The notes under the pieces: generated by a model
Told to the model about the DNA's origin: nothing
Database searches by the model: none
What the model saw: only the letters and a program-made list of their open reading frames with translations
Translations under genes and position numbers: made by a program
Shown here: positions 1 to 15,580 of the stretch, in pieces
Position numbering within the stretch: position 1 is the first letter of the stretch
How the letters are laid out: each line of letters begins with the position of its first letter
DNA from: an uncultured Desulfobacterium sp.
Lineage (GTDB): Bacteria; Desulfobacterota; DSM-4660; Desulfatiglandales; Desulfatiglandaceae
DNA: 64,000 bases
Reading direction: 5' to 3'
Assembly (NCBI GenBank): GCA_900258555.1
Contig: LT984857.1
Coordinates: forward strand, 121,768-185,767

Positions 1-2033
1 TTCTCTCCAGGGTCACCTTTTATGAGGCCCCGTCACATGGCGTTCAGGCCGCTGCCTGATGTCATGGATAAGATTCCAGGAAAGGAGGTGAGAAGAAGAT
101 CTGTTGTGGCGTCCGTAGGAGAAAGACAACTTTAATGGAGGAGGATTAGGAATGAACACCAATTACTTTTTTAAGGGTAAGACGTGGCTGTTTTTTTTCC
201 TGTTTTTCTTTTCAGGAGTAACCGTCAGCCTGGCTGAGATAGAGCTTATTGGGGAAACACTCACTGTGACAGGCTTTATAAGACACCAGACCGTATTCAA
301 TATGGGTGAGAAAAATCCCTATAACAGCAATCCGCAATATGATACAAACGGCTATTTAGCCTCCCCTCCCAAAAAGACCGGTTACGGTGTACAGCAAGAC
401 AAGAACTGGTGCAATCTGAACAGGACATGGTTTGTGACCGAGTGGAATTACAGGCCTGCCGATATATTCAAGCTCTACTCGAAGATAAGGGTGATAGAGG
501 ACTCGACCACAAATGTTGATGGAGATCTTTATGAGTATAATGCGCTTGCACTGAGCACCGACCATTATGGGAGCACCGGAAGGCTTGGTCATGACAACCA
601 TGTCACGGCGGAGATCTGGGAGATGTACGGTGATCTTGACCTGGGAAACCTCTGGCTAAGGCTAGGCAAGCAGCAGATCGTGTGGGGTGAGATGATATCG
701 GCAAGGATACTCGATGTTGTAAACCCCCTTGATAAGAGCTGGCATTTTACCTGGGAGCCCGAGGAATTTGAAAATATCAGGATCCCTCAGTGGATGCTTC
801 GCGCTGTGTACAATATAGAGCCCGGTTCGTTGCCATTGCTGGACGAGCTTTATGTTGAGGGCTTTTTAAACCCTGGTGATATAGTTCCGACCAACGACCC
901 CCAGATCGGTAATCCTTACAGACACAACTACCAATATGAATACAACCCGAACAACCCGGATGAGTGGGGCGGCATCTGGAGGACGACTGAGGAAAACGAT
1001 CGAAGGGGTGACCGGGAATTCGGATTCAGGCTGGGGTATAAGCTTGGTCAGTTTGCAGGCACCTTAAACTATGCGCACCTGTTTAGTGATGATGCCATTA
1101 GTAAGACCACCAGGCTCTACGGCACTATCCCAGCACCGTGGGCAAGATATCTTGGGGATGCGGAAAAGGACTATCCCAGGATTGATATATATGGTATGAG
1201 CATGAACTATGCCTTTGATCAGCCCGTAAACACGGTTATGACCATTGAGGCCACCTATATCCCCAATGCCCCGTGGTATACGATTGACTGTTTTTACTTT
1301 CCCGCGGGCGTTCCCCCTGTGAGTCTTCTGCCTGTTGTAGGTATGGATTATATTGACACCAGGGAATTTAATTATGCCATAAACCTCCAGAGGTTTTCAA
1401 ACATCATCCCTGGCCAACAGTTTATGAATGTCACCTTTCAGTATCAGGGAAAGTATGTGCCGGAGGCCGACGATGTCAAATGGACCCCCGGTGCCCCACC
1501 GCCATCTTATCAAAACCCCAGGGGTGATTACGGGACCAATACAGGCAACATTGTTGAAAAGATCAATACCGATGCCTTTGTCTTAAGTCTTTCTCAGGAT
1601 TTTGCATACAAGACCTACAAGGCTTCGTGCCTGATCATATGGCAGCCTGACGGGGCCTATCGTATAAACCCGGGCTTTGCCTACACACCGGGAGATCACT
1701 GGCGCTTTGATGTATTTGCCAACTGGTGGGGAGGAAACGCCTATGACAATAACAATAAGAGTTGCCTCAATTACTTCTATTACCAGGATGAAGTAATGGC
1801 CAGGATAACCTATCAATTCTAAGGGAGGGATAAGCAATGAACAGACAAAGTGAAATAAAATGCTCTTATTTTTTGGTGCTGTTGATCTCCCTTCTTTTTT
1901 TGTTACCTTGTGCAAATTCTGTTACGGGTGCTGAAATCCCCACTGCCTGGGATGTGGCCTCCAGAAAGGCAGAGCTGCCCACCATAGAGGATTTGACGGC
2001 AGGTAAGGTAAAAAAAGGCGATGTCATTGATAA
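1..2033. repeat. Long direct repeat, left copy
   Basis: This stretch reappears at 6877-8909 with an offset of 6876 bp, and no difference was found wherever the two were compared. Matching stops at 2034 (A here, G at 8910), inside the DUF1329 gene; after that the two genes are only moderately similar. The left edge is the window start, so the copy may extend further. The unit includes the leader, the entire DUF1302 gene and about 66 codons of the DUF1329 gene. No transposase or terminal inverted repeats are seen, so recent duplication or gene conversion is more likely than an insertion sequence. Confidence 0.95.
152..1822 (+). CDS. DUF1302-family outer-membrane beta-barrel protein, copy A
   Basis: A 556-aa protein with a signal peptide (Lys-rich start, long Leu/Phe core, cleavage near SLAEI around residue 29) and a C-terminal phenylalanine (ARITYQF), the usual BAM-recognised end of an outer-membrane barrel. 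The body is rich in alternating aromatic and polar residues (KLYSKIRVIED, YKLGQFAGTLNYAH), typical of DUF1302 proteins. These are commonly encoded beside DUF1329 proteins in hydrophobic-substrate loci. The start follows a strong GGAGGAGGATTAGGA ribosome site. The stop is 14 nt before the DUF1329 gene, so the two are an operon. An identical protein is encoded at 7028-8698. A transport role for lipophilic compounds is inferred, not shown. Confidence 0.85.
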   Translation: MNTNYFFKGKTWLFFFLFFFSGVTVSLAEIELIGETLTVTGFIRHQTVFNMGEKNPYNSNPQYDTNGYLASPPKKTGYGVQQDKNWCNLNRTWFVTEWNYRPADIFKLYSKIRVIEDSTTNVDGDLYEYNALALSTDHYGSTGRLGHDNHVTAEIWEMYGDLDLGNLWLRLGKQQIVWGEMISARILDVVNPLDKSWHFTWEPEEFENIRIPQWMLRAVYNIEPGSLPLLDELYVEGFLNPGDIVPTNDPQIGNPYRHNYQYEYNPNNPDEWGGIWRTTEENDRRGDREFGFRLGYKLGQFAGTLNYAHLFSDDAISKTTRLYGTIPAPWARYLGDAEKDYPRIDIYGMSMNYAFDQPVNTVMTIEATYIPNAPWYTIDCFYFPAGVPPVSLLPVVGMDYIDTREFNYAINLQRFSNIIPGQQFMNVTFQYQGKYVPEADDVKWTPGAPPPSYQNPRGDYGTNTGNIVEKINTDAFVLSLSQDFAYKTYKASCLIIWQPDGAYRINPGFAYTPGDHWRFDVFANWWGGNAYDNNNKSCLNYFYYQDEVMARITYQF

Positions 2034-3153
2034 AACCAATGTGGACCTGGTCAAACAGTATTTAAGCGCCGGGGTACTTGAAGCTGTAAATCAGGGGATG
2101 AAAATGATCATGGGTTCGCAAATGCCTCCAGATAGTGGGATACCTGAAACCAGTATTGAAGCCACAGAAAGGAACAAGGGTAAGGCCGTCATGGATGAAA
2201 ATGGCACTGTTTACTATGAAAAAATAGGAACTCCCTGGCCTGGGGGCATCCCATTTCCTGAGCCCAAAAGCGGATTGGAGGTAATGGCAAATAAAAAGTT
2301 TGGCTCAGGAGTGGATGATTATTTTATTTTTTCGTCGATTATATTTGTTAACCAACAAGGTAAAAGTTATAAGAAAGTTATGGCAGAACTTCAATACCTG
2401 TTTTGTAGCACAAGAACCGAACTACCTCCTTTTGGAACATACCCAGGATATGAAGATATCATGTACAAAAGGACATCCATATTAGTGTCACCATTGGAGG
2501 TCAAAGGGTTCGGCCAGTATAGCGTAAGATACTATGACGATTCAAAGAACTATGACACAGGATTTGCTTATTTTCCCGCATACAAAAGAACTCTGCGTAT
2601 TAGTGCTACTACTTGGCAGGATAATGTAGCGGGAAGTGATTTGACCTATGGTGATGGGAATGGGTTTCAAGAACCATATTCAGTTTGGAGTTTCAACCTC
2701 CTTGGGACGCAATACATCTTAATGGCCGAACCTAAGGCTCCATTCCCACTTGCAGATGATAATGGAATTTGCAAAGGGGTAATCCTTGACGTGGGTGAGA
2801 AATATCCCAGAATTGGATGGGCTATAACCCCAATCCATGTAGTCGAGGCGATACCAAAGGTGTCCCATATATATGGAAAAAGAATTTTGTATATCGTATC
2901 AGCGCCTTATTTTAATCCAGACATTCAGGTCGTGATCGCAGATAACTATGATCGGCAGATGAAACTATGGAAGGTTTATCTTTCTTTTAATGGCGATTAC
3001 AACGAGAGGGAGCATTATTATATGCAATATGGCTGTCTTATGAATGATCTCCAGACAGGCCATATGACTCAATACTGGAGTAAAATGCATCTCAATAAAG
3101 GTCTCAAACCGGGTGATATCAGTCTGAAGGAATTGACTGCAAAGGGGAGATAG
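1837..3153 (+). CDS. DUF1329-family periplasmic protein, copy A
   Basis: A 438-aa protein with an N-terminal signal sequence (hydrophobic LVLLISLLFLLP, cleavage near TGAEI around residue 32), followed by a DUF1329-type body of repeated beta-strand segments (YYDDSKNYDTGFAYFPAYKR, RISATTWQDN, PRIGWAI). The family is thought to adopt a lipoprotein-localisation-like fold and is nearly always paired with DUF1302 barrels. GGGAGG precedes the start, 14 nt after the barrel gene. The first 66 or so codons match the copy at 8713 exactly; the rest is clearly related but divergent, so the mature domains may have different specificities. The C-terminus ends DISLKELTAKGR, a tail also found in a decayed third copy at 13502. 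Periplasmic ligand carrier is inference. Confidence 0.82.
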   Translation: MNRQSEIKCSYFLVLLISLLFLLPCANSVTGAEIPTAWDVASRKAELPTIEDLTAGKVKKGDVIDKTNVDLVKQYLSAGVLEAVNQGMKMIMGSQMPPDSGIPETSIEATERNKGKAVMDENGTVYYEKIGTPWPGGIPFPEPKSGLEVMANKKFGSGVDDYFIFSSIIFVNQQGKSYKKVMAELQYLFCSTRTELPPFGTYPGYEDIMYKRTSILVSPLEVKGFGQYSVRYYDDSKNYDTGFAYFPAYKRTLRISATTWQDNVAGSDLTYGDGNGFQEPYSVWSFNLLGTQYILMAEPKAPFPLADDNGICKGVILDVGEKYPRIGWAITPIHVVEAIPKVSHIYGKRILYIVSAPYFNPDIQVVIADNYDRQMKLWKVYLSFNGDYNEREHYYMQYGCLMNDLQTGHMTQYWSKMHLNKGLKPGDISLKELTAKGR

Positions 3154-3188
3154 ATGGAAAGCCTTAATTGATGCACAGGTTACAATTC

Positions 3189-3307
3189 AATGTCATTAAC
3201 TTAACAACTCTTAATAAGTAAAAGGAATTGAATTCGCTGTCGTAAAGGAAATATTTTGAACCGTGACCCCCGGGGTTATAACTAAGTACCCAATGTCATT
3301 AACTTAA
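3189..3307. repeat. Partial copy of a MITE-like dispersed repeat
   Basis: The 256-bp gap between the DUF1329 gene and the first UbiD gene contains AATGTCATTAACTTAA twice (3189-3204 and 3292-3307). The sequence after the first copy (about 3189-3268) matches the left part of the element at 60421-60500, including the ACTCTTAATAAG and AAATATTTTG blocks. The right half of that element is absent. It looks like a truncated miniature element; no coding content is visible. Confidence 0.7.
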
Positions 3308-3409
3308 GAAAGAGGTTTGTAACATAAAAAATATTTTCTACTGGAAGCCAAATGGCGTCTGGGATATTTTCGGCCTGGTCTAATTGGTTCAATTGTTAGG
3401 AGGTATGAT

Positions 3410-4864
3410 ATGGCATTCTTAGATTTAAGAGAGTTTTTAGAGAAGCTGGAAGAAGAGGGTGAGCTTGTAAGAGTAAAAAAACTTGTTGATTGGAATCTTG
3501 AAGCCGGTGGTATTGCAAGAAGGGCAACAGAACTCGGAGAGCCTGCTCCTCTATTTGAAAATATCAAGGACTACCCCGGTTATAGGCTTTTAAGCGCTCA
3601 GGTTGGTCCCAGCAATAAAGAAAATCGTTATTATTGCAGGATGGCCATGGCCATGGGTATGAAGCCTGAGTCAGGTCCTGATGAAATTATTGAAGAGTAT
3701 CTTGAAAGGAAGAAGTTTCCGATAAAACCGGTTCTTGTCCCAGAAGGGCCCTGCAAGGAAAATGTTTTTATTGGAGATGAAGTGGATTTAGAAAAGCTGC
3801 CGGTTCCTATTATTCACGGAGGGGATGGCGGAAGATTTATCGGTTCATGGCATGCAGTTGCTACAAAGGATCTGGATACTGATTGGGTTAACTGGGGAAT
3901 GTATAGACTTATGGTTCATGATAAAAATACTATGGGAAGTGTGATTGTTCCGCCTCAACATATTGGGAGAATGTTTTTTCAGAAATATGAGCCAAAAAAT
4001 TTGCCAATGGAATTTGCTGCTATAATCGGCGCAGAACCTATTACCCCTATGTTATCAGGGAGTCCAATCGCAGCAGGTGTAAATGAGATGGATATAATAG
4101 GAGCTATAAGAAAGGAACCTCTACAGGTGGTAAAGTGTGAGACTGTTGATCTTCTGGTTCCAGCAACTGCAGAAATCGTTATAGAAGGTGAAGTAGTTCC
4201 TAATATGAGAAAAGATGAAGGTCCATTTGGAGAATATGTCGGCTATAGGGCCAGCAAAAGGTCGCCAAAGCCGGTATTAAAAGTGAAGGCCATTACCCAT
4301 CGCAACAATCCAATTCTTACGATGTGTGCTTTAGGTGTCCCTGTTGATGAAGGCCACTTGTCAGTAGCTACAATCTGGGCTGCAGAAATTTTAGAAACAT
4401 TAAGAAAGCACGAATTTCCTGTCAAAATGGTATTTATACCACCTGAAGGAGTAACACATATGGTTATTGTTTCAACAAAAATCCCATATCCAAATTTCGC
4501 AAAAAGGATAGCGGATGCTATTTGGGCATCACCTGCCGGAATCTTTTCTTATTATGTCGTGGTTGTCGATGATGATGTCGATGCAACAAATATGGATGAA
4601 GTCTTATGGGCTTTTACAACTAGGTGCCATCCTAAAAGGGACATTTTTGTCCAGGAAGGTTCACCTGTGTATCCAATTTTAATTCCTTTTTTAGAACCAA
4701 AAGACAGGCTTATCGGAGATAATGGGGCAAATGTTTTGTTCGATTGCACTTGGCCGTATCACTGGGATAAAGAGGACATACCTACAAAGGCATCATTTGA
4801 TGTACTATGGCCAAAGGAACTCCAGGAAAGCATTATTAATAACTGGAAGGAATATGGATTCTAG
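3410..4864 (+). CDS. UbiD-family prenylated-FMN (de)carboxylase, paralogue 1
   Basis: A 484-aa UbiD-family enzyme. Such proteins use prenylated FMN made by UbiX to decarboxylate, or in some pathways carboxylate, aromatic or unsaturated substrates. Compared with the well-studied fungal Fdc1, the prFMN metal ligands are N161, H184 and E226, and the catalytic Arg-Glu-Glu set is R166 (NWGMYR), E270 and E275 (DEGPFGEY). All are present, so this copy looks competent. The start follows TTAGGAGGTATGAT, the same leader as paralogue 2. UbiD2 is the closest relative here. Within the island it probably acts on the compound handled by the DUF1302/DUF1329 pair (inference); the substrate is unknown and no ubiX is visible in the window. 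Confidence 0.88.
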   Translation: MAFLDLREFLEKLEEEGELVRVKKLVDWNLEAGGIARRATELGEPAPLFENIKDYPGYRLLSAQVGPSNKENRYYCRMAMAMGMKPESGPDEIIEEYLERKKFPIKPVLVPEGPCKENVFIGDEVDLEKLPVPIIHGGDGGRFIGSWHAVATKDLDTDWVNWGMYRLMVHDKNTMGSVIVPPQHIGRMFFQKYEPKNLPMEFAAIIGAEPITPMLSGSPIAAGVNEMDIIGAIRKEPLQVVKCETVDLLVPATAEIVIEGEVVPNMRKDEGPFGEYVGYRASKRSPKPVLKVKAITHRNNPILTMCALGVPVDEGHLSVATIWAAEILETLRKHEFPVKMVFIPPEGVTHMVIVSTKIPYPNFAKRIADAIWASPAGIFSYYVVVVDDDVDATNMDEVLWAFTTRCHPKRDIFVQEGSPVYPILIPFLEPKDRLIGDNGANVLFDCTWPYHWDKEDIPTKASFDVLWPKELQESIINNWKEYGF

Positions 4865-4958
4865 CGTTTTGATCTCAATATGCCGACTGGGAAGAATAAA
4901 ACTTCTTCAACGGGTGATTTTTTGGGGCTTACTTGAAACCATAAATGGAGGTGTATGA

Positions 4959-5108
4959 ATGAAAGATGTATACGACGTGATTGTTATTGGCGGAGGAGTA
5001 AACGGCTTGTGTGCGGCTGGTTACATGGCGAAATGCGGTTTGGATGTAGCCGTGTTTGAATCCCGCAATGAAGTGGGCGGCATTGGAAAAACTGGAGATA
5101 GCCTTTAA
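4959..5108 (+). pseudogene. Truncated N-terminus of a FAD/NAD(P)-dependent oxidoreductase
   Basis: A 49-codon frame begins with a textbook Rossmann dinucleotide-binding segment: VYDVIVIGGGVNGLCAAGY, a following helix, then VAVFESRNEVGG. It stops at 5106-5108 after KTGDSL. A full phytoene-desaturase-like or related flavoprotein would be about 450-550 aa, so this is only the first tenth. A good ribosome site (GGAGGTG) is retained, so the fragment may still be translated. No continuation was recognised before UbiD2. It suggests that a flavin oxidoreductase once sat between UbiD1 and UbiD2. Confidence 0.75.
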
Positions 5109-5262
5109 AATGCCCAACTTAACAATTTAATGAACCACCCAATAGCAAAAGCTACAGGGTAGAGGAAAAACTAACTTTTCTGGTAACTGTTCAGCAATAC
5201 ATTTACAAAAAATGGGTTTTCTAACAAAATCCCAAAAAAATTCCTGTGCTAGGAGGTATGAT

Positions 5263-6693
5263 ATGGCATTCTATGATCTCAGACAATTTATTGATAAGCT
5301 TAAAGAAACTGGGGATGTTGTTTATATAAATCAGGAGGTTGATTGGAATTTGGAGGCCGGAGCAATTATGCGGAGATGTAACGAAACATCTGCCCCGGCT
5401 CCTTTTTTTCAGAGGCTTAAGTCTTATCCGCAGGGATATAGGCTTTTTGGAAGCCCAATGGCTACTTTTAGAAGATTAGCTATCGCCATGGATATGGAAC
5501 CGGATACTCCCTATCAGAGTTTTTTGGAGGAATTTAAGAAAAGAACAAAAAACCCAATAAAACCCATCCTGGTCTCGGATGGTCCATGTAAGGAAAATAA
5601 ATTATTTGGTGAGGATATCGATGTGTTAAAGTTTCCTGTTCCCCTCATACACGAAGGAGATGGCGGACGTTATATTGGAACCTGGCACATATCCGCCACT
5701 AAGGATCTGGGTACGGAATGGGTTAACTGGGGAATGTATCGCTTGATGATTCATGATAAGAATACGTTAGGTGGACTGATGGTGCCCACTCAACATATTG
5801 GTATGATACTAAATAAATATGAAGCGATGAACAAACCCATGGAGATTGCCGTAGCTATCGGCACCGAACCTGTAACTGCCATTATAGGGACATGCGGGGT
5901 CCCCACAGGAATAAATGAGATGGATATTATTGGCGGATTCAGGAGGGCACCTCTAGAGGTGGTTAGATGTGAAACGGTAGATTTAGTGGTGCCTGCTACT
6001 TCCGAAATTGTTATTGAGGGAGAAGTTTTGCCAAATCAACGAAAGGATGAAGGACCTTTTGGGGAATATACCGGATATCAGGCCGGAGGAAGGGGCCCAA
6101 GGCCCGTTGTAAAGGTAAGGGCGATAACTCACCGAAATGATCCTATCTTAACCTCTTCAAATATGGGTGCCCCCATTGAGGAAAGTGATATATGCATGAA
6201 TGTTGCTTGGGCTTCTGATATCTGGATGCAATTGTTAAATGCAGGCTTTCCAATTACCGGTGTTTGCATACCAGTTGAATCCAGTGGTACGATCGTCGTG
6301 GTAGCAACTAAAAAGCCCTACAACAGTATCGCAAATGGTATTGCAGCTTCGGTCTGGTCCACAAAAAATGGTAAACATATCCCAAGGGTGGTCGTCGTTG
6401 AAGAGGATGTTGATCCTTATGACTTGAAGCAAGTAATTTTTGCTTTAGGCACCAAGTGTCATCCGGTTAGGGGGACTACAGTTTTTGATAATATGCCCCA
6501 TTCACCATTAATTCCTTTTCTGGACATGAAAGAGAAAACATATTTTTCCTCTGCAAATGTGGTTTATGATTGTACATGGCCATTGGATTGGGATACAGAA
6601 AATGTGCCTAAGCTTGCTTCTTTTAAAGCTATTTATCCAAAGGAAATGCAAGAGAGGGTTCTTTTAAATTGGAAGAATTATGGTTTCAAATAA
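5263..6693 (+). CDS. UbiD-family prenylated-FMN (de)carboxylase, paralogue 2
   Basis: A 476-aa UbiD-family protein. The start at 5263 (MAFYDLRQF) is preferred over an upstream in-frame codon at 5212 because AGGAGGTATGAT lies just before it and the N-terminus then aligns with UbiD1. Conserved sites are N155, R160 (NWGMYR), H178 (TQHIG) and the Glu pair in DEGPFGEY, so both metal ligands and the acid-base set are intact. It is the nearest relative of UbiD1, with long shared blocks such as TEWVNWGMYRLM and VNEMDIIG-like, which suggests a tandem duplication. The pair could form a hetero-oligomer or act on two related substrates. The next 333 bp (6694-7027) hold only the start of the long repeat and a leader. 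Confidence 0.88.
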   Translation: MAFYDLRQFIDKLKETGDVVYINQEVDWNLEAGAIMRRCNETSAPAPFFQRLKSYPQGYRLFGSPMATFRRLAIAMDMEPDTPYQSFLEEFKKRTKNPIKPILVSDGPCKENKLFGEDIDVLKFPVPLIHEGDGGRYIGTWHISATKDLGTEWVNWGMYRLMIHDKNTLGGLMVPTQHIGMILNKYEAMNKPMEIAVAIGTEPVTAIIGTCGVPTGINEMDIIGGFRRAPLEVVRCETVDLVVPATSEIVIEGEVLPNQRKDEGPFGEYTGYQAGGRGPRPVVKVRAITHRNDPILTSSNMGAPIEESDICMNVAWASDIWMQLLNAGFPITGVCIPVESSGTIVVVATKKPYNSIANGIAASVWSTKNGKHIPRVVVVEEDVDPYDLKQVIFALGTKCHPVRGTTVFDNMPHSPLIPFLDMKEKTYFSSANVVYDCTWPLDWDTENVPKLASFKAIYPKEMQERVLLNWKNYGFK

Positions 6694-6876
6694 CTGTGGA
6701 ACCTAATGTGATTTTGAATTGAAACGAGTAGAACAGGAGAAAATAAGACCAAGCCATGTTACATACTACATGGGTACAATTTATTTGTAACTACTCAGGT
6801 CAATGTTTCAGAGAAGGGAAGCGATTGTGCATGAAAATGTGTATAAATTGCTCGAATAGGCTTGTAGGTACTTCCC

Positions 6877-8909
6877 TTCTCTCCAGGGTCACCTTTTATG
6901 AGGCCCCGTCACATGGCGTTCAGGCCGCTGCCTGATGTCATGGATAAGATTCCAGGAAAGGAGGTGAGAAGAAGATCTGTTGTGGCGTCCGTAGGAGAAA
7001 GACAACTTTAATGGAGGAGGATTAGGAATGAACACCAATTACTTTTTTAAGGGTAAGACGTGGCTGTTTTTTTTCCTGTTTTTCTTTTCAGGAGTAACCG
7101 TCAGCCTGGCTGAGATAGAGCTTATTGGGGAAACACTCACTGTGACAGGCTTTATAAGACACCAGACCGTATTCAATATGGGTGAGAAAAATCCCTATAA
7201 CAGCAATCCGCAATATGATACAAACGGCTATTTAGCCTCCCCTCCCAAAAAGACCGGTTACGGTGTACAGCAAGACAAGAACTGGTGCAATCTGAACAGG
7301 ACATGGTTTGTGACCGAGTGGAATTACAGGCCTGCCGATATATTCAAGCTCTACTCGAAGATAAGGGTGATAGAGGACTCGACCACAAATGTTGATGGAG
7401 ATCTTTATGAGTATAATGCGCTTGCACTGAGCACCGACCATTATGGGAGCACCGGAAGGCTTGGTCATGACAACCATGTCACGGCGGAGATCTGGGAGAT
7501 GTACGGTGATCTTGACCTGGGAAACCTCTGGCTAAGGCTAGGCAAGCAGCAGATCGTGTGGGGTGAGATGATATCGGCAAGGATACTCGATGTTGTAAAC
7601 CCCCTTGATAAGAGCTGGCATTTTACCTGGGAGCCCGAGGAATTTGAAAATATCAGGATCCCTCAGTGGATGCTTCGCGCTGTGTACAATATAGAGCCCG
7701 GTTCGTTGCCATTGCTGGACGAGCTTTATGTTGAGGGCTTTTTAAACCCTGGTGATATAGTTCCGACCAACGACCCCCAGATCGGTAATCCTTACAGACA
7801 CAACTACCAATATGAATACAACCCGAACAACCCGGATGAGTGGGGCGGCATCTGGAGGACGACTGAGGAAAACGATCGAAGGGGTGACCGGGAATTCGGA
7901 TTCAGGCTGGGGTATAAGCTTGGTCAGTTTGCAGGCACCTTAAACTATGCGCACCTGTTTAGTGATGATGCCATTAGTAAGACCACCAGGCTCTACGGCA
8001 CTATCCCAGCACCGTGGGCAAGATATCTTGGGGATGCGGAAAAGGACTATCCCAGGATTGATATATATGGTATGAGCATGAACTATGCCTTTGATCAGCC
8101 CGTAAACACGGTTATGACCATTGAGGCCACCTATATCCCCAATGCCCCGTGGTATACGATTGACTGTTTTTACTTTCCCGCGGGCGTTCCCCCTGTGAGT
8201 CTTCTGCCTGTTGTAGGTATGGATTATATTGACACCAGGGAATTTAATTATGCCATAAACCTCCAGAGGTTTTCAAACATCATCCCTGGCCAACAGTTTA
8301 TGAATGTCACCTTTCAGTATCAGGGAAAGTATGTGCCGGAGGCCGACGATGTCAAATGGACCCCCGGTGCCCCACCGCCATCTTATCAAAACCCCAGGGG
8401 TGATTACGGGACCAATACAGGCAACATTGTTGAAAAGATCAATACCGATGCCTTTGTCTTAAGTCTTTCTCAGGATTTTGCATACAAGACCTACAAGGCT
8501 TCGTGCCTGATCATATGGCAGCCTGACGGGGCCTATCGTATAAACCCGGGCTTTGCCTACACACCGGGAGATCACTGGCGCTTTGATGTATTTGCCAACT
8601 GGTGGGGAGGAAACGCCTATGACAATAACAATAAGAGTTGCCTCAATTACTTCTATTACCAGGATGAAGTAATGGCCAGGATAACCTATCAATTCTAAGG
8701 GAGGGATAAGCAATGAACAGACAAAGTGAAATAAAATGCTCTTATTTTTTGGTGCTGTTGATCTCCCTTCTTTTTTTGTTACCTTGTGCAAATTCTGTTA
8801 CGGGTGCTGAAATCCCCACTGCCTGGGATGTGGCCTCCAGAAAGGCAGAGCTGCCCACCATAGAGGATTTGACGGCAGGTAAGGTAAAAAAAGGCGATGT
8901 CATTGATAA
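6877..8909. repeat. Long direct repeat, right copy
   Basis: This is the second copy of the 2,033-bp unit at 1-2033. Its left edge is undetermined because the first copy starts at the window edge; its right edge is at 8909/8910 in the DUF1329 gene. The absence of detectable changes, synonymous sites included, means the duplication or a gene-conversion event is very recent, or that an assembler used the same reads twice. Confidence 0.95.
7028..8698 (+). CDS. DUF1302-family outer-membrane beta-barrel protein, copy B
   Basis: Identical in protein and apparently in DNA to the 556-aa barrel protein at 152-1822, including the signal peptide, C-terminal ARITYQF and ribosome site. It sits 14 nt before a DUF1329 gene whose mature part has diverged. 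An unchanged barrel with a variable partner suggests that the channel is generic and any specificity lies in the DUF1329 protein and the downstream UbiD enzymes (inference). Two identical copies may also raise expression. Confidence 0.85.
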   Translation: MNTNYFFKGKTWLFFFLFFFSGVTVSLAEIELIGETLTVTGFIRHQTVFNMGEKNPYNSNPQYDTNGYLASPPKKTGYGVQQDKNWCNLNRTWFVTEWNYRPADIFKLYSKIRVIEDSTTNVDGDLYEYNALALSTDHYGSTGRLGHDNHVTAEIWEMYGDLDLGNLWLRLGKQQIVWGEMISARILDVVNPLDKSWHFTWEPEEFENIRIPQWMLRAVYNIEPGSLPLLDELYVEGFLNPGDIVPTNDPQIGNPYRHNYQYEYNPNNPDEWGGIWRTTEENDRRGDREFGFRLGYKLGQFAGTLNYAHLFSDDAISKTTRLYGTIPAPWARYLGDAEKDYPRIDIYGMSMNYAFDQPVNTVMTIEATYIPNAPWYTIDCFYFPAGVPPVSLLPVVGMDYIDTREFNYAINLQRFSNIIPGQQFMNVTFQYQGKYVPEADDVKWTPGAPPPSYQNPRGDYGTNTGNIVEKINTDAFVLSLSQDFAYKTYKASCLIIWQPDGAYRINPGFAYTPGDHWRFDVFANWWGGNAYDNNNKSCLNYFYYQDEVMARITYQF

Positions 8910-10032
8910 GTCCAACGTGGACCTGGTCAAACAATGGTTAACCCCTGGTACTATTGAAGCCATAATGCAGGGAATGATCTTGACCATGGGAACGAATTCA
9001 AATCCTTATGATGGTGTCCCCAAGGAGTATGTTGAGGCTACAGAAAAAAACAAAGGAAAGGCAGTCATGGATGAGAATCGTGCCGTCTATTATGAGAAGA
9101 TAGGTACACCCTGGCCCGGAGGTATTCCATACCCAGAGCCTAAGAACGGGGATGAAGTGATGGCGATCCTAAAGTATGGTGTGGGGATAATTGATTACGT
9201 AACCGATGGAGTACTGCGTTTTGTTAACCGAGATGGAAAAGTCTATAAAAATGTTGGCATGTCGACAACTCAGGTCTGGGTTAGTAATAGAATATTTCCT
9301 CCTTTAGGAACATATCCTGGTTATGAGGGTCAGATGTTCAGGAGGGTCTCTACATTAACCTTCCCGGTTGAAATCAAAGGACAGGGGCAGTTTGCCATCA
9401 GGTATTACGACGATTCAAAACAATATGATTCCGGCTTTGCTTATTTTCCCGCATACAAAAGGACGTTGCGGATTAGCACCACTACCTGGCAGGATAACAT
9501 CGCCGGAAGCGACCTGACAAACGGGGATTCAGAAGGGTTTAGGGAACCATATGCGGATTGGAAGTTCAAGCTCATCGGTACGGAATATCTCCTAATTCCG
9601 GAACACCGTGCCCCTTTCCCATATATAAGCAACAAGGGAATGGATTGTGATCCGAGGCTCAAATGGGACGTGGGAGTAAGATTTCCCCGGATAGGCTGGG
9701 CAGTGTTCCCCGTGTTTGTCGTGGAGGCAGTGCCGACGGTGAAACATATATATGGGAAAAAGATACTGTATCTTGGTACTCCACCCTATCTTCTTTCCTC
9801 TGGTGCGGCTGAGATCATGGAGTCTTATGATCGCCAAGGGAATCTGTGGAAATATTATGTTAACATCAACGGCCTTTTTGTCGAGAAATGGCATTCAAGT
9901 ATTCCATTTGGCGTTGTTATGACAGACCTTCAGTCACAACATACTACGCAGTTCTTATTTAATTACACGATCAATCAGAATGTAGATCCGGCGAGGTGCT
10001 CATTAAAGGAATTACTGGCGAGAGGAAGGTAG
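8713..10032 (+). CDS. DUF1329-family periplasmic protein, copy B
   Basis: A 439-aa homologue of the protein at 1837-3153. Signal peptide and first 66 residues are identical, then the two diverge (for example LVKQWLTPGTIEAI against LVKQYLSAGVLEAV) while keeping the framework motifs YYDDSKQYDSGFAYFPAYKR, TTWQDNIAGSDLT and PRIGWAV. It ends CSLKELLARGR. The abrupt change from identity to divergence inside one gene indicates a recombination junction. Codon use is GC-richer than in copy A, for example GTCGTGGAGGCAGTG. Same inferred role as copy A: periplasmic partner of the DUF1302 barrel. Confidence 0.82.
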   Translation: MNRQSEIKCSYFLVLLISLLFLLPCANSVTGAEIPTAWDVASRKAELPTIEDLTAGKVKKGDVIDKSNVDLVKQWLTPGTIEAIMQGMILTMGTNSNPYDGVPKEYVEATEKNKGKAVMDENRAVYYEKIGTPWPGGIPYPEPKNGDEVMAILKYGVGIIDYVTDGVLRFVNRDGKVYKNVGMSTTQVWVSNRIFPPLGTYPGYEGQMFRRVSTLTFPVEIKGQGQFAIRYYDDSKQYDSGFAYFPAYKRTLRISTTTWQDNIAGSDLTNGDSEGFREPYADWKFKLIGTEYLLIPEHRAPFPYISNKGMDCDPRLKWDVGVRFPRIGWAVFPVFVVEAVPTVKHIYGKKILYLGTPPYLLSSGAAEIMESYDRQGNLWKYYVNINGLFVEKWHSSIPFGVVMTDLQSQHTTQFLFNYTINQNVDPARCSLKELLARGR

Positions 10033-10117
10033 GCCGTCTGGCCTAATAAAAATTGGTTTCTATTTAGCGAAGTCCTTAACGGGGGATATTCAATTCCCCG
10101 AGGCGGTTAAGGGGGGT

Positions 10118-10150
10118 GGTTAGGGTGGGACCTTGAGTTTCACCCTAACC
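10118..10150 (+). other. Intergenic hairpin before UbiD3
   Basis: A 10-bp perfect inverted repeat, GGTTAGGGTG at 10118-10127 and CACCCTAACC at 10141-10150, lies between the DUF1329 copy B gene and UbiD3. It has no T-run, so it is more likely an mRNA processing or stability hairpin that separates expression levels within the operon than a terminator. Confidence 0.5.
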
Positions 10151-10188
10151 ATGCTGTTGACTGTTGATAATTGTAATTTGAGGTAGAT

Positions 10189-11670
10189 ATGGAATACAAT
10201 GATTTGCGGGATTTTTTGCGCCTTCTTGAAGAAAAAAACGAGCTTATCCGGATACGACAACTGGTTGATTGGGATATAGAGCTAGGAGCCATTTCTCAAG
10301 AGTCTATCAATAGAATTGGTGCTGCTTTTATTTGTGAAAACATCAAAGATTACGGCAATACGTCCTGTAAAAGAGTCGCAATGAATTATTTGGGCAATTG
10401 GCGAAGAATTGCTCTTGCGCTTGGCATGAATCAAGATGCACATCCAAGGGAAATGGTTCATGAATGGCGCAGGAGGCACAAGGAGTTAATCAAGCCTGTG
10501 CTGCTGGAGACCGGCCCGTGCAAGGAAAACGTTGTAAAGGGTAAAGATGTTGACCTTCTACAATTCCCTATTCCAAAGCTTCACGCAAGGGATGGTGGAC
10601 GTTACGCACTTACTTGGCACATTGTGGTAACGCGTGATCCTGAATCCGGATGGATGAATGTGGGCACTTACAGAGGGATGCTTCTTGATAAGCAAAACAT
10701 AGGGATGTTACTTTCCCCATTTCAGAATTGGGGCATTCATGCAGAAAAATACCTCAATCGCAATATGAAGATGCCTGTATCTGTTGCTTTGGGGGTTGAT
10801 CCTATTACTATTATGACATCTGCAACGCCTTATCCAGCAGGAATTTGCGAATATGATGTGATAAGCGCTGTTAGAAAGGAACCTATACAGCTTGTTAAAT
10901 GCGAGACAAATGATCTTTTGGTTCCTGCAAGGGCTGAGATCATTCTGGAGGGAGAAATTAGCCTGGATTCCTCAACATTTCGTATGGAGGGGCCATTCGG
11001 GGAATATCCCGGATATTACTCATCGTTTGATTCAACTCCTAAACCTGTATTCAACGTAAAATGTATTACATTTCGGGATGATCCCATTTTTACAAGCGGA
11101 CTGATTGGTTGTGGGCCCCATTCGAAAGCAGCAGACTGTGATTATATGGGGGCTGTAACTTTAAGCGCCGTTACTTGGGATCAGTTAGAACTTAACAGGG
11201 TGCCCGGTGTGAAAGATGTATGGTTTGATGAAGACATATGGGGGACCAATGTATTTGTAAGTATTAATAAGGCATATTACGGTCATCCCCGACAGGTGGC
11301 CTTTGCTATATGGTCGCCTCCATCCGGTGTTTATGTTGGGAAATATGTTGTAGTTGTTGATTCTGATATAGATATCCATAATCCCAAAAAAATTTGGGCT
11401 GCCATTGCAAATCGAACTAATCCCAGTAAAGATATTGTGGTGATTCCCCACACCGGCGGAGGGCCTCTTGATCCGTCGGTTCATCCTGACATAAAGATGG
11501 TGACCGGAAAAATCGGAAGATGGGATAGAGTTCTGATTGATGCCACCTGGGATGACACGTGGGAAGAGCGCCCTGAATGGGGTGGCATCAATCATCCTCC
11601 TTCTTGTCTGTCAGGAGAGGACGAAGTCCAAATTGTCAGAAAAAAATGGAGGCAATATGGTTTTATATAA
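10189..11670 (+). CDS. UbiD-family protein, paralogue 3, with His-to-Asn change at the metal site
   Basis: A 493-aa UbiD-family protein, start after TTGAGGTAGAT. R162 (NVGTYR), N157, E222 and the Glu pair E268/E273 (MEGPFGEY) are kept. The position that normally holds the metal-binding His is Asn (N180 in SPFQNWG); spacing to R162 (+18) and to E222 (+42) matches Fdc1 exactly, so this is not an alignment slip. The mutation would weaken Mn binding at the prFMN phosphate. The protein may be a structural or regulatory partner of UbiD4, as in multi-subunit carboxylases such as phenylphosphate carboxylase, or may bind the cofactor differently. It is the most divergent of the five, with a distinct Gly/His-rich C-terminus. 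Confidence 0.85.
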   Translation: MEYNDLRDFLRLLEEKNELIRIRQLVDWDIELGAISQESINRIGAAFICENIKDYGNTSCKRVAMNYLGNWRRIALALGMNQDAHPREMVHEWRRRHKELIKPVLLETGPCKENVVKGKDVDLLQFPIPKLHARDGGRYALTWHIVVTRDPESGWMNVGTYRGMLLDKQNIGMLLSPFQNWGIHAEKYLNRNMKMPVSVALGVDPITIMTSATPYPAGICEYDVISAVRKEPIQLVKCETNDLLVPARAEIILEGEISLDSSTFRMEGPFGEYPGYYSSFDSTPKPVFNVKCITFRDDPIFTSGLIGCGPHSKAADCDYMGAVTLSAVTWDQLELNRVPGVKDVWFDEDIWGTNVFVSINKAYYGHPRQVAFAIWSPPSGVYVGKYVVVVDSDIDIHNPKKIWAAIANRTNPSKDIVVIPHTGGGPLDPSVHPDIKMVTGKIGRWDRVLIDATWDDTWEERPEWGGINHPPSCLSGEDEVQIVRKKWRQYGFI

Positions 11671-11741
11671 GGCCTGTTGTAAACATCTACGAATTACAAT
11701 GCATGCTAATTAATTCTTAAGATTGTGAAAGGAGGATAAGT

Positions 11742-13133
11742 ATGCCTTTTAGAGATTTAAGGGAGTTCTTAGAGATTTTAAAGAGAGAAGGCGAACTGTT
11801 AGTTATCGATAAAGAGGTCGACGCTCATCTTGAAATTGGAGCAGTAGGGTATTTGACGAGGATGGGCCCGGCAGTCCTTTTTACGAATGTCAAAGGGTCT
11901 GACAAATCAGTGGCTATAAATATATTAGGAACACGGAAAAGGGTGGGACTGGCACTTGGCGCCACCGCAGATGGGTTAAATGAGGCAATAGCCAAGGGGA
12001 TCAACAACCCGATAAAACCGGTTCTTGTTTCTGATGGCCCCTGCAAGGAGAATATCTTGCAAGGAGATGATGTAGATTTAAATATTTTTCCTATTCCCCA
12101 ATGGAATGATAAAGATGGTGGCAGATTCATCGATTTCGGCAATGTCATTACCAAGGATGCGGAGACAGGGATTCAAAATGCTGGAATGTATCGGATGCAT
12201 GTGACAGGGAAAAATAAAACGGGTGTCTATGTTGCGGACAGACAACATATTGGCAGACATTACAAGAAGGCGAAAGAACTTGGTAAAAAGGAACTTGAGA
12301 TGGCTGTTGCCATAGGTATGGACCCGGCAACTAATCTGGTGGGGCCTCTGCCTGCTGAATATGGGGTTAACGAGTTGGATCTTGCGGGAGGATTGAGGGG
12401 AGAGCCTGTAGAGGTGGTTAAATGTGAAACCGTTGATCTTTTGGTTCCGGCCTCAGCAGAGATCATATTGGAAGGGAAGATTCCTTTGGGTGTCCATAAA
12501 ACAGAGGGGCCTTTTGGGGAATTCACTGGTTATTATTCCGGGACATATGAGCATCCTGTTTTTGAGATTTCTGCTATTACTTACAGAAATGATCCAATAT
12601 TCCAGGGCACCTATTTGGGAAGGCCTCCAACCGAAGGGCATATCGCTGGCGAAATTCCAATGGAAACCCTGACTTATTTGGAGGCTAAAAAAAAGCTCCC
12701 CGAATTGAGGGGAGTGCATATTTTAGAAGGAACGGGATGGATTATCTTTGTTGCCTCCATAAAAAAGGAATACGAGGGCCAGGTGCAGCGGGTCGCAAAT
12801 GTAATCTGGAGCACTCAAGTCGGCGACTATGGAAAAGTGTTAGTCGTTGTTGATGATGATATAAATCCCTATAATGTAAATGACGTGATATGGGCAATTG
12901 CAACACGCTATCAGCCGGAATTTGATACATATATCACACCAAGGGTGGCTGGTTATGGACTTGATCCCTCAGAAATACCAGTTTCCGCGGCACGAGGCAT
13001 TGAAACCGGCGGTACTTCTTGTATGACGTCGAGGGTTGTAATTGATGCCACTGTATCATTTGGGCGAATAATGGGAGAACCTGTTAAAGCCCCAGCAATA
13101 ACGGAGGAAGTAAAAAAGCGGTTGGCACTCTGA
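11742..13133 (+). CDS. UbiD-family prenylated-FMN (de)carboxylase, paralogue 4
   Basis: A 463-aa UbiD-family enzyme beginning MPFRDLREFL after GAAAGGAGGATAAGT. N146, R151 (NAGMYR), H169 (DRQHIG) and the Glu pair in TEGPFGEF are all present, so it looks catalytically complete. It is shorter than its neighbours and ends in a different tail (EEVKKRLAL). It lies 71 bp after UbiD3, which lacks the metal His, so the two may form a catalytic plus accessory pair (inference). UbiD proteins of this subtype resemble the 4-hydroxybenzoate and phenylphosphate carboxylase groups. Confidence 0.87.
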   Translation: MPFRDLREFLEILKREGELLVIDKEVDAHLEIGAVGYLTRMGPAVLFTNVKGSDKSVAINILGTRKRVGLALGATADGLNEAIAKGINNPIKPVLVSDGPCKENILQGDDVDLNIFPIPQWNDKDGGRFIDFGNVITKDAETGIQNAGMYRMHVTGKNKTGVYVADRQHIGRHYKKAKELGKKELEMAVAIGMDPATNLVGPLPAEYGVNELDLAGGLRGEPVEVVKCETVDLLVPASAEIILEGKIPLGVHKTEGPFGEFTGYYSGTYEHPVFEISAITYRNDPIFQGTYLGRPPTEGHIAGEIPMETLTYLEAKKKLPELRGVHILEGTGWIIFVASIKKEYEGQVQRVANVIWSTQVGDYGKVLVVVDDDINPYNVNDVIWAIATRYQPEFDTYITPRVAGYGLDPSEIPVSAARGIETGGTSCMTSRVVIDATVSFGRIMGEPVKAPAITEEVKKRLAL

Positions 13134-13185
13134 GTTGTATCAATTTTTTATAGTAAGGCAATCGGCCAATAATATAAGCAGCAAA

Positions 13186-13386
13186 ATGGACATAGATATT
13201 CTAAATGATCCTGATCTCTACAGGGCTCTCGTGAAAAATAGCCTGTCAGACTTTTTATCGTCAAAGAAACTGCCATCGTCCAATGATAAGGAGAAACCTC
13301 TCCGTATTTGCGTTCATAAGGGTGTAGAGTCAGCTCAGACAACCGGATTTGTAAATTTTTATCTTATTAATAACCCAATACCTTAG
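13186..13386 (+). pseudogene. Unrecognised small ORF, probably a decayed gene piece
   Basis: A 66-codon frame (MDIDILNDPDLYRALV...) ends at TAG 13384-13386. The same frame then continues without interruption for 38 codons to a TGA at 13501 and encodes a hydrophobic tail (ALFIILPMTGGLIFLLKLIE). This looks like a membrane-anchored protein interrupted by one stop codon. The family was not recognised, and no convincing ribosome site is present. Confidence 0.3.
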
Positions 13387-13501
13387 ATAGCATGTAAAGA
13401 TATCAATGCGTCTTGTGAATTTTTTGGAAAGGTTACTTCTGCGCTATTTATCATCCTGCCAATGACAGGTGGGTTGATCTTTCTGCTCAAATTAATTGAA
13501 T

Positions 13502-13609
13502 GATCCCCAGCCAGGTCATATGACTCAATATTGGTATAAACTTAATATGAATCAGGGTCAAAAACCATAGGACATCAGCCTAAAGGAATTGATGACTAAG
13601 GGGAGATAG
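13502..13609 (+). pseudogene. 3' remnant of a third DUF1329 gene
   Basis: Thirty-six codons align with the last 35 residues of the DUF1329 protein at 1837-3153: PGHMTQYWYKLNMNQGQKP, then an in-frame TAG in place of Gly, then DISLKELMTKGR and the TAG stop. The parent reads TGHMTQYWSKMHLNKGLKP, then DISLKELTAKGR. Even the GGGGAGATAGA end is shared. The rest of the gene is missing. It shows that a third DUF1329 gene once stood before UbiD5, so the island grew by module duplication. Confidence 0.85.
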
Positions 13610-13657
13610 ACGATAAAAGCTAACGTTTTTAAAACAGTTCGAAAAAAGGAGTCGGCA

Positions 13658-15079
13658 ATGAGCCATAAAGACCTGCGTGAATTTATCGGTAAACTGGAAG
13701 CTGCAGGGGAGCTGCATCGAATCAAAACTCAAGTAGATTGGGATCTGGAATTAAGCGCGATCATGAGGAAGGTCTTTGAAAAGGATGGCCCTGCATGCCT
13801 TTTTGAAAATGTCAAGGGCAGTGACTTTCCTGTGTTTTCCGGAGGCTTCTACAAGGCCAAGAAGTACGGGATTGCTGTTGGTGCGCCCCCGGATATTCGG
13901 TCCATCCTGAAAAAGATGCTAAGGGCCACTGAAAACCCAATCCCACCTGTGATGGTGTCGAATGGTCCTTGCAAGGAAAACATTGATCTGGGAGACAAAA
14001 TCAATCTGGAAAAATTTCCCGTGCCCAAATGGTTTCATCTTGATGGCGGAAGATACATAGGGACCCTTGGGACCATAATAACAAAAGATCCTGACACAGG
14101 GATCAGGAACATGGGGGTGTATAGGCAGCAGATTGCAGGAAAAAACAGGCTTGGGATGCTTGCGACTCAACAGTGTGGCATCAACCTACAAAAACATCGT
14201 ATCAGAAAAATTCCAATGCCAATAGTTACTGCCATAGGGGTGCCGCCATCTGTGCTTGCTGCTGCAATCGTCAGGGCCCCTTACGGAGAAGATGAACTGG
14301 GCATTGCTGGCGGTATCATGGGCGAGCCCATCCCCCTTGTAAAATGTGAGACTGTAGACCTGGAAGTCCCTGCAAATTCTGAGATTGTAATAGAGGGAGA
14401 AATTCCTCCCGATGCAGATTTGTGGGTAGAGGAGGGACCTTTTGGAGAATTTACCGGCTATTGCAGCTCTGTCCATTCAGAAATAAAACCTGTTGTTAAT
14501 GTCACCGCTGTCACATACAGAAATAATCCAATTTTTCAAGGGTGCTCACCTGGTATTCCGCCTAATGAAGAAACCACGTTTCGAGAAATCGGTTCTACTG
14601 TCGGTGCCTGGCGAAGTATACTTAAGGCGGCCGTTCCTGGTGTCAAAGAGGTCTACGCAACTGAAATGGGATGTGCTGAATTCGTGATCGTAGTCTCAAT
14701 GGATCAGCAGTATTATATGGGAAACGCCCGTGAGGTCATAGAGGGGGTGTTTGCAACTGTAGGCAAGACGACAAAATGGGTAATTGTTGTGGACGATGAC
14801 ATTGACATCTTTGACAGGGGCCAGGTGGAATGGGCGCTTTCTGTCAGGGTGCAACCCCATAGGGATATTATTATTACAGATGACAGACATTCAGGAAATC
14901 CCCTTGACCCATCGATCCATCCCAGTCTGCGGCGACACCCCCTTTTGGCCCGTACGTCACGCATAGGAATTGATGCCACGACCAAAAATAAGGATTTTGA
15001 TTTTCCGCCCCTCGTAAAGTCCACCGAAGAAATGGAAAGGCTTGTTGAAAAAAGGTGGAGAGAATATGGCTTCATTTAG
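13658..15079 (+). CDS. UbiD-family protein, paralogue 5, lacking the metal-site His
   Basis: A 473-aa UbiD-family protein, start MSHKDLREFI after AAAAAAGGAGTCGGCA. N151 and R156 (NMGVYR), E213 and the Glu pair in EEGPFGEF are kept. In the loop where UbiD1, 2 and 4 have QHIG, it reads QQCG (171-174) with a short deletion, so the metal-ligand His is missing. Like UbiD3 it is therefore an atypical member. It stands alone behind a destroyed DUF1329 gene and may have lost its barrel and periplasmic partners. It may still work as a subunit with another paralogue. Confidence 0.85.
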   Translation: MSHKDLREFIGKLEAAGELHRIKTQVDWDLELSAIMRKVFEKDGPACLFENVKGSDFPVFSGGFYKAKKYGIAVGAPPDIRSILKKMLRATENPIPPVMVSNGPCKENIDLGDKINLEKFPVPKWFHLDGGRYIGTLGTIITKDPDTGIRNMGVYRQQIAGKNRLGMLATQQCGINLQKHRIRKIPMPIVTAIGVPPSVLAAAIVRAPYGEDELGIAGGIMGEPIPLVKCETVDLEVPANSEIVIEGEIPPDADLWVEEGPFGEFTGYCSSVHSEIKPVVNVTAVTYRNNPIFQGCSPGIPPNEETTFREIGSTVGAWRSILKAAVPGVKEVYATEMGCAEFVIVVSMDQQYYMGNAREVIEGVFATVGKTTKWVIVVDDDIDIFDRGQVEWALSVRVQPHRDIIITDDRHSGNPLDPSIHPSLRRHPLLARTSRIGIDATTKNKDFDFPPLVKSTEEMERLVEKRWREYGFI

Positions 15080-15157
15080 CCCCTTCTTAACAATATAGGC
15101 ATAGGACTCCTTTCGCGGGAATTTTCTATGATCAGAAAGAGAAAGGAAATTGGTGTC

Positions 15158-15186
15158 TTGGAGCGGGATAGCTAATCCCGCTCCAA
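15158..15186. other. Perfect 12-bp inverted repeat after UbiD5
   Basis: TTGGAGCGGGAT (15158-15169) and ATCCCGCTCCAA (15175-15186) are separated by 5 nt. The hairpin lies 79 bp after the UbiD5 stop and could end or stabilise the UbiD transcript, though no T-run follows. The rest of the 493-bp gap (15080-15572) holds no gene that I can support. Confidence 0.5.
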
Positions 15187-15478
15187 TCCCCTTGCGCATT
15201 AACCTGTAGGCAACCTCTCCTCTTAGCTTCCTATAAGTTCCAATGCCAATTTTTTTTGTGCCTGCCGGATCACATCTGCCGCTGGCAAGCTTGGGTATTC
15301 CCCGTGTTTCCACCAAGGCGGCAGGCATCATCAATGTATTGACTTTATCTCGTAGACTTTGTTTCAATTCTGAAAGGTCTTCCTGGCCTGTAACAACAAC
15401 CACTGAGGCGGAGTCAGCATAAACATATAAAAAAAGATTGTGGGTGCTCAGACAATCTTGAGTAATTAGTGTGTTAGG

Positions 15479-15580
15479 ATGTATAAAAAGTACAGAGCCA
15501 TTGAGGAAGTCGCACGCAGGGCCAATCTGGATAGACGGACAGTTAGAAAGTATATAAATTTTGGTAAGGTCCATGGATAA
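15479..15580 (+). pseudogene. Short helix-turn-helix frame, likely C-terminal remnant of a sigma-54 regulator
   Basis: Thirty-three codons read MYKKYRAIEEVARRANLDRR and then TVRKYINFGKVHG. The AIEEVARRANLDRRTVRKYI part has the form of a Fis-type recognition helix pair at the end of NtrC-class activators. Upstream in the same frame are TILSN, a TAG and CVR, as if a longer protein were interrupted by a stop. It overlaps the nitrilase start by 8 nt. A free 33-aa peptide is possible but less likely. Confidence 0.4.

Follow-up and report, generated by a model that had tools for sequence, protein, structure and literature searches.

Replacement of the metal-site histidine by asparagine or glutamine in two of five clustered UbiD family proteins of a Desulfobacterium species

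The window, a stretch of 64,000 nucleotides of contig LT984857.1 from an uncultured Desulfobacterium sp., a sulfate-reducing bacterium, contains five neighbouring ORFs of the UbiD family, which are called UbiD1 to UbiD5 here and are listed with their surroundings in Table 1. UbiD3 ends 71 bases before UbiD4 starts. UbiD3 and UbiD5 both score above the curated cut-off of the UbiD family (TIGR00148, 244.85 bits; PF01977). UbiD1 and UbiD2 do not reach the cut-off of the phenylphosphate carboxylase alpha subunit (TIGR02723), nor do UbiD5 (267.9 bits) and UbiD3 (249.2 bits) reach that of the beta subunit (TIGR02724, 468.95 bits), and no gene for a gamma or delta subunit was recognised between the UbiD genes of the window. 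The genome has 26 UbiD matches and four matches to PF02441, the flavoprotein family that contains UbiX. Among viral contigs, the search with the alignment query yielded a single distant relative, and UbiD5 had no match. Within long reading frames of this genome there are stretches of N, either masked or unresolved (L200 3803-7903 and L196 12150-15329).

Table 1. Features of the UbiD cluster, in positions of the window
Feature	Position	Strand	Evidence
DUF1302 protein, first copy	152..1822	+	PF06980, 72.5 bits
DUF1329 protein, first copy	1837..3153	+	99.5% identical to same-genus copy; start identical to second copy
UbiD1, phenylphosphate carboxylase alpha-like, canonical H184	3410..4864	+	TIGR02723, 425.7 bits (below cut-off, 564.6); tree
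UbiD2, phenylphosphate carboxylase alpha-like, canonical H195	5212..6693	+	TIGR02723, 408.1 bits (below cut-off); tree
DUF1302 protein, second copy, identical to first	7028..8698	+	Sequence comparison
Segment with second DUF1302/DUF1329 pair, UbiD3 and UbiD4	7109..13606	+	Absent in same-genus genome G001, contig L197
DUF1329 protein, second copy, diverged after start	8713..10032	+	PF07044, 129.5 bits
UbiD3, QNWG-type UbiD family protein, 493 aa	10189..11670	+	ORF; TIGR00148, 352.2 bits; UbiD fold
UbiD3 N157 codon (= Fdc1 N168)	10657..10659	+	Alignment
UbiD3 N180 codon (= Fdc1 H191)	10726..10728	+	Alignment, same column throughout
UbiD3 E221 codon (= Fdc1 E233)	10849..10851	+	Alignment
UbiD4, 463 aa, canonical site, H169 in RQHIG	11742..13133	+	ORF, profile, alignment
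DUF1329 3'-end remnant upstream of UbiD5	13497..13610	+	77% identity to window 3041-3154
UbiD5, 473 aa, TQQCG	13658..15079	+	ORF; TIGR00148, 351.4 bits; Foldseek
UbiD5 Q172 and C173 codons at the His position	14171..14176	+	Alignment

The same-genus genome G001 has the order LuxR/PAS regulator, YCF48-like protein, MMPL transporter, DUF1302, DUF1329, UbiD1, UbiD2 and UbiD5. Its contig L197 matches window 1-7108 at 99.6% (L197 6804-13915) and window 13607-15212 at 89.3% (13917-15521), and the first bases of the second DUF1302 gene are fused there to the sequence just upstream of UbiD5. Since window 7109-13606 is absent in G001, UbiD3 and UbiD4 appear to be gained or lost jointly with the second DUF1302/DUF1329 pair, while UbiD5 keeps its place beside UbiD1 and UbiD2. 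Because the identity is 99.6% to the left of the junction (L197 13885-13950) and 89% to its right, the junction may be a mosaic or a join made in MAG assembly, although it shows no long shared sequence. Window 1-2000 and 6877-8876 are an identical repeat of about 2 kb that takes in DUF1302 and the beginning of DUF1329; past about position 2000 in first-copy coordinates the two copies of DUF1329 lose identity and diverge beyond the repeat, as by recombination or gene conversion. Between UbiD1 and UbiD2, window 4959-5108 resembles the start of an FAD-dependent oxidoreductase, which is intact beside another UbiD gene of the genome, L008 (MKDVYDVIVIGGG). Delftia grew less well on phenanthrene once a DUF1329 gene had been deleted, and high expression was reported for a DUF1329/YCF48/MMPL cluster in a benzene degrader (PMC13101534). 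This link of the MMPL/DUF1302/DUF1329 genes to hydrocarbon use suggests, by analogy, hydrophobic aromatic substrates for the window's cluster, although it points to no particular one.

In Fdc1 of Aspergillus niger the Mn-binding residues include N168, H191 and E233, R173, E277 and E282 are cofactor-associated, and Q190 is a cofactor-binding residue (PMC4947166). The earlier note had thus named the metal ligands rightly as Asn, His and Glu, and the translations and alignment bear out its statement that UbiD1, UbiD2 and UbiD4 keep QHIG, with H184, H195 and H169, respectively, all 18 residues after the Arg. The corresponding residues of UbiD3 are N157, R162, Q179, N180 (R+18, in FQNWG), E221, E267 and E272. 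Its N180 was correctly placed in that note, but the metal Glu is E221, 41 residues further on, and not E222 at +42; the same distance is +41 in UbiD2 and UbiD5 and +42 in UbiD1 and UbiD4. In UbiD5 the set is N151, R156, Q172 (R+16), C173 (R+17), E213, E259 and E264, and the protein is two residues shorter before the site than UbiD1-4, which confirms the QQCG with a short deletion. Because Arg and Q172 are 16 residues apart, just as R180 and H196 are in E. coli UbiD, Gln172 takes the place of the His, and Cys173 was rejected as its replacement on alignment and spacing. Therefore, an amide replaces the imidazole in both proteins, giving Asn-Asn-Glu in UbiD3 and Asn-Gln-Glu in UbiD5 instead of the Fdc1-like Asn-His-Glu, while the Arg and two Glu of the catalytic E(D)-R-E network are retained in both, as had been read from the sequence before. 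H184 of UbiD3 (N180+4), invariant in the QNWG clade to which UbiD3 belongs (see below), was considered as a compensating His and rejected on sequence, because a His at +4 occurs also in His-bearing relatives (QHWGHH; H173 of UbiD4).

The predicted structures, made from a shallow alignment of 8 rows (window proteins and other loci), have pLDDT values of 73.7 for UbiD3 and 74.3 for UbiD5. Both models have the two-domain UbiD fold, complete in UbiD3 (Z 44.1, rmsd 3.4 over 438 residues to VdcC, 7ae4) and matching HmfF (6h6v) with a Foldseek E of 9e-37 in UbiD5. A helix starts at N180 and at Q172, respectively, the latter in agreement with the alignment. UbiD3 and UbiD5 share with Fdc1 and E. coli UbiD the fold, the Asn and Glu at the metal, and the Arg and two acidic residues of catalysis, and are unlike them in having Asn180 and Gln172 where those have His191 and His196. 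No description of Asn or Asp at this metal-site position was found in the literature searched, which was covered in part.

The His itself varies widely. It is kept, as the aligned residue, in 13 of the genome's 26 UbiD proteins, and the others have Asn, Gln, Pro, Thr or Phe. A tree of UbiD homologues from which the columns of the site had been left out shows at least 14 switches between His and non-His, the replacing residues including Asn, Asp, Gln, Lys, Arg and Thr. UbiD3 falls into a clade (support 100) with three other proteins of the genome (L004, L006 and L008) and a UBA5623 orthologue (L028), all of which have Asn in a QNWG motif; an identical UbiD is encoded by L028 and a G001 contig. 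The tree neighbours of this clade mostly have His (QHWG, QHGG, THWG), so Asn is derived there, and among the genomes sampled the clade is confined to the window's genus. Its paralogues are 70-79% identical, with dN of 0.14-0.22 and saturated dS, for which reason no dN/dS ratio is given. UbiD5 and its G001 orthologue are 93.2% identical with a dN/dS of 0.07, and QQCG is kept. As far as these comparisons go, the QNWG clade evolves under purifying selection, and the retention of Asn in it and of QQCG in the UbiD5 orthologue exceeds chance. The surroundings of the paralogues differ: in the L006 locus MMPL, DUF1302 and DUF1329 are followed directly by a single QNWG UbiD, L004 has no second UbiD nearby and has DUF1302/DUF1329 close by on the other strand, and canonical UbiD genes and genes for FAD-dependent oxidoreductases occur in the vicinity of L008. 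Of the four paralogues with QNWG, two (L004 and L006) thus have no second UbiD in their loci.

The His is also missing from proteins assigned to known enzymes. Thauera phenylphosphate carboxylase needs two UbiD-like subunits, as does the aniline carboxylase of Desulfatiglans anilini (PMC7500099), and the naphthalene carboxylase of culture N47 has four UbiD genes (PMC12016498). In proteins assigned by family or record annotation, as distinct from the biochemically studied Thauera ones, all seven PpcA fetched over the curated cut-off have Asp (SDMG) at the His position, and among 30 PpcB fetched over theirs His is kept in 12 and replaced by Lys, Arg or Thr in 18. With a few relatives, the PpcB that lack His form a clade of 21 (support 100). 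The annotated ppcA on plasmid pAZKH of Azoarcus sp. KH32C likewise encodes Asp (SDLG), and in the product of KH32C ppcB the His is replaced by Arg and the metal Glu by Asp. Judged from these annotated PpcA proteins, absence of the His alone does not mark a non-catalytic protein, and Asn-His-Glu is no strict requirement of the UbiD family, since other members deviate too. The window's cluster resembles the phenylphosphate carboxylase loci of Thauera, Azoarcus and relatives in having several UbiD genes, in the grouping of UbiD1 and UbiD2 with PpcA on the tree and in the loss of the His, but UbiD1, UbiD2 and UbiD5 lie under the curated cut-offs and the replacing residues are other ones. The best matches of UbiD5 outside the genus include PpcB-like proteins; nevertheless, because it scores under the cut-off and branches apart from the PpcB clade, it was rejected as a true PpcB. 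With the N47 and D. anilini carboxylases, from sulfate-reducing relatives, the cluster shares several UbiD proteins per enzyme or cluster; the ParA/MinD-like and linker genes of the N47 cluster were not seen in it. A further UbiD-type protein (L202 6777-8123; second UbiD ORFs of L160-L163, L165 and L166; L017, L021 and L022 of the window's genome) adjoins ppcA in several phenylphosphate carboxylase loci. It is without all three metal ligands, having Gly/Thr, Pro/Thr and Lys at their positions, and keeps the Arg and two Glu where aligned.

Asn is also found, independently, in the menaquinone biosynthesis decarboxylase. The curated enzyme of the genome, L001 (TIGR03701, 629.7 bits; cut-off, 495.9), and its TIGR03701 relatives in three further genomes, G001, G042 and G045, carry Asn at the equivalent of E. 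coli H196; of 14 members over the cut-off, four have Asn and 10 His. The same-genus enzyme is like UbiD3 in this Asn and in keeping the remaining site residues, but stands on a separate branch of the tree, so that His to Asn arose independently. Searches with UbiD5 and with TIGR03701 returned a single UbiD match in each of G042 and G045 and, if these genomes have no other UbiD, the Asn-type enzyme must do the job. From the family assignment and the absence of other UbiD matches, the Asn-type menaquinone decarboxylase is presumed functional, and this inference is the strongest argument for Asn being compatible with function.

The two proteins do carry the substitution, which is conserved and belongs to a wide variation at the His position and, because that position has changed often, also in presumed working enzymes, UbiD3 and UbiD5 are probably variant enzymes or subunits and not dead copies. 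For UbiD3, activity with a modified metal site is the most likely reading: it would be a catalytically competent prFMN-dependent reversible (de)carboxylase, in which N157, N180 and E221 would hold the metal at the cofactor phosphate and R162, E267 and E272 would carry out the chemistry as in other UbiD enzymes. UbiD5 would be the Gln version (N151, Q172, E213) and would belong with UbiD1/UbiD2 in function, whether as an independent variant enzyme or as the other UbiD subunit in a complex resembling phenylphosphate carboxylase, and the cluster would probably (de)carboxylate some hydrophobic aromatic compound that the MMPL/DUF1302/DUF1329 module handles. This explanation as a whole is somewhat favoured; its direct support consists of sequence, conservation, phylogeny and gene order.

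The earlier note had proposed that the two atypical proteins are non-catalytic subunits or use the cofactor differently. As structural or regulatory partners, UbiD3 of UbiD4 and UbiD5 of UbiD1/UbiD2, they would fit the closeness of UbiD3 to UbiD4 and the joint absence of these two from G001, the company that UbiD5 keeps with UbiD1/UbiD2 in both genomes (a suggestive gene order), the doubly altered KH32C PpcB, and the multi-UbiD aniline (PMC7500099) and naphthalene (PMC12016498) carboxylases. However, UbiD3 and UbiD5 both retain the full catalytic set and the two remaining metal ligands, two QNWG paralogues are solitary, and presumed menaquinone decarboxylases have Asn; we consider such a role for both rather unlikely. 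For UbiD3 the proposal is weakened by the last two points, although a trans-acting partner among the 26 paralogues may be conceivable, and it could still hold for UbiD5, which may be a partner of UbiD1/UbiD2 in view of the known two-UbiD enzymes and the shared retention in G001. The other half of the proposal, a different use of the cofactor, is plausible as a modified metal site. A stronger form, in which the amides prefer a different ion, such as Mg, Ca or a second K, or no divalent metal sits at the cofactor phosphate, so that cofactor loading or oxygen sensitivity is altered and catalysis kept, seems improbable: the His has given way to diverse residues and the ion varies within the family, phthaloyl-CoA decarboxylase being reported with Fe(II) (PMC8379154), but Mn could stay in an amide site because Asn is already a Mn ligand in Fdc1. 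Hardly credible is decay of the two paralogues; the DUF1329 and oxidoreductase remnants do show turnover in the cluster, but the ORFs are full-length, the dN/dS of UbiD5 is low, and the QNWG clade is conserved with low dN, if saturated dS. A more speculative and on the whole unlikely possibility is that of heteromeric aromatic-compound carboxylases with a split of labour between a canonical Mn-prFMN subunit and an amide-ligand subunit with another ion or cofactor state.

The His of the prFMN metal site tempts readers to call UbiD proteins without it inactive, but it is a poor marker of activity because of its at least 14 changes on the sampled tree, some of them in proteins annotated as phenylphosphate carboxylase and in putative menaquinone decarboxylases. 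Should amide-ligand sites prove active, more UbiD enzymes are worth testing for the carboxylation of unactivated aromatic compounds, and the role of the ligand is directly testable by single substitutions (UbiD3 N180H; Fdc1 H191N). Other site residues vary as well: in the adjacent paralogues L023/L024 the catalytic Arg is Cys, and in L025/L026, also adjacent, the second Glu is His, and the two pairs are near-duplicates that lie on contigs C4 and C2 next to genes for PF02441 flavoproteins. In addition, two genomes of the same phylum, G252 and G094, have about 60 UbiD matches each, far above the other genomes sampled.
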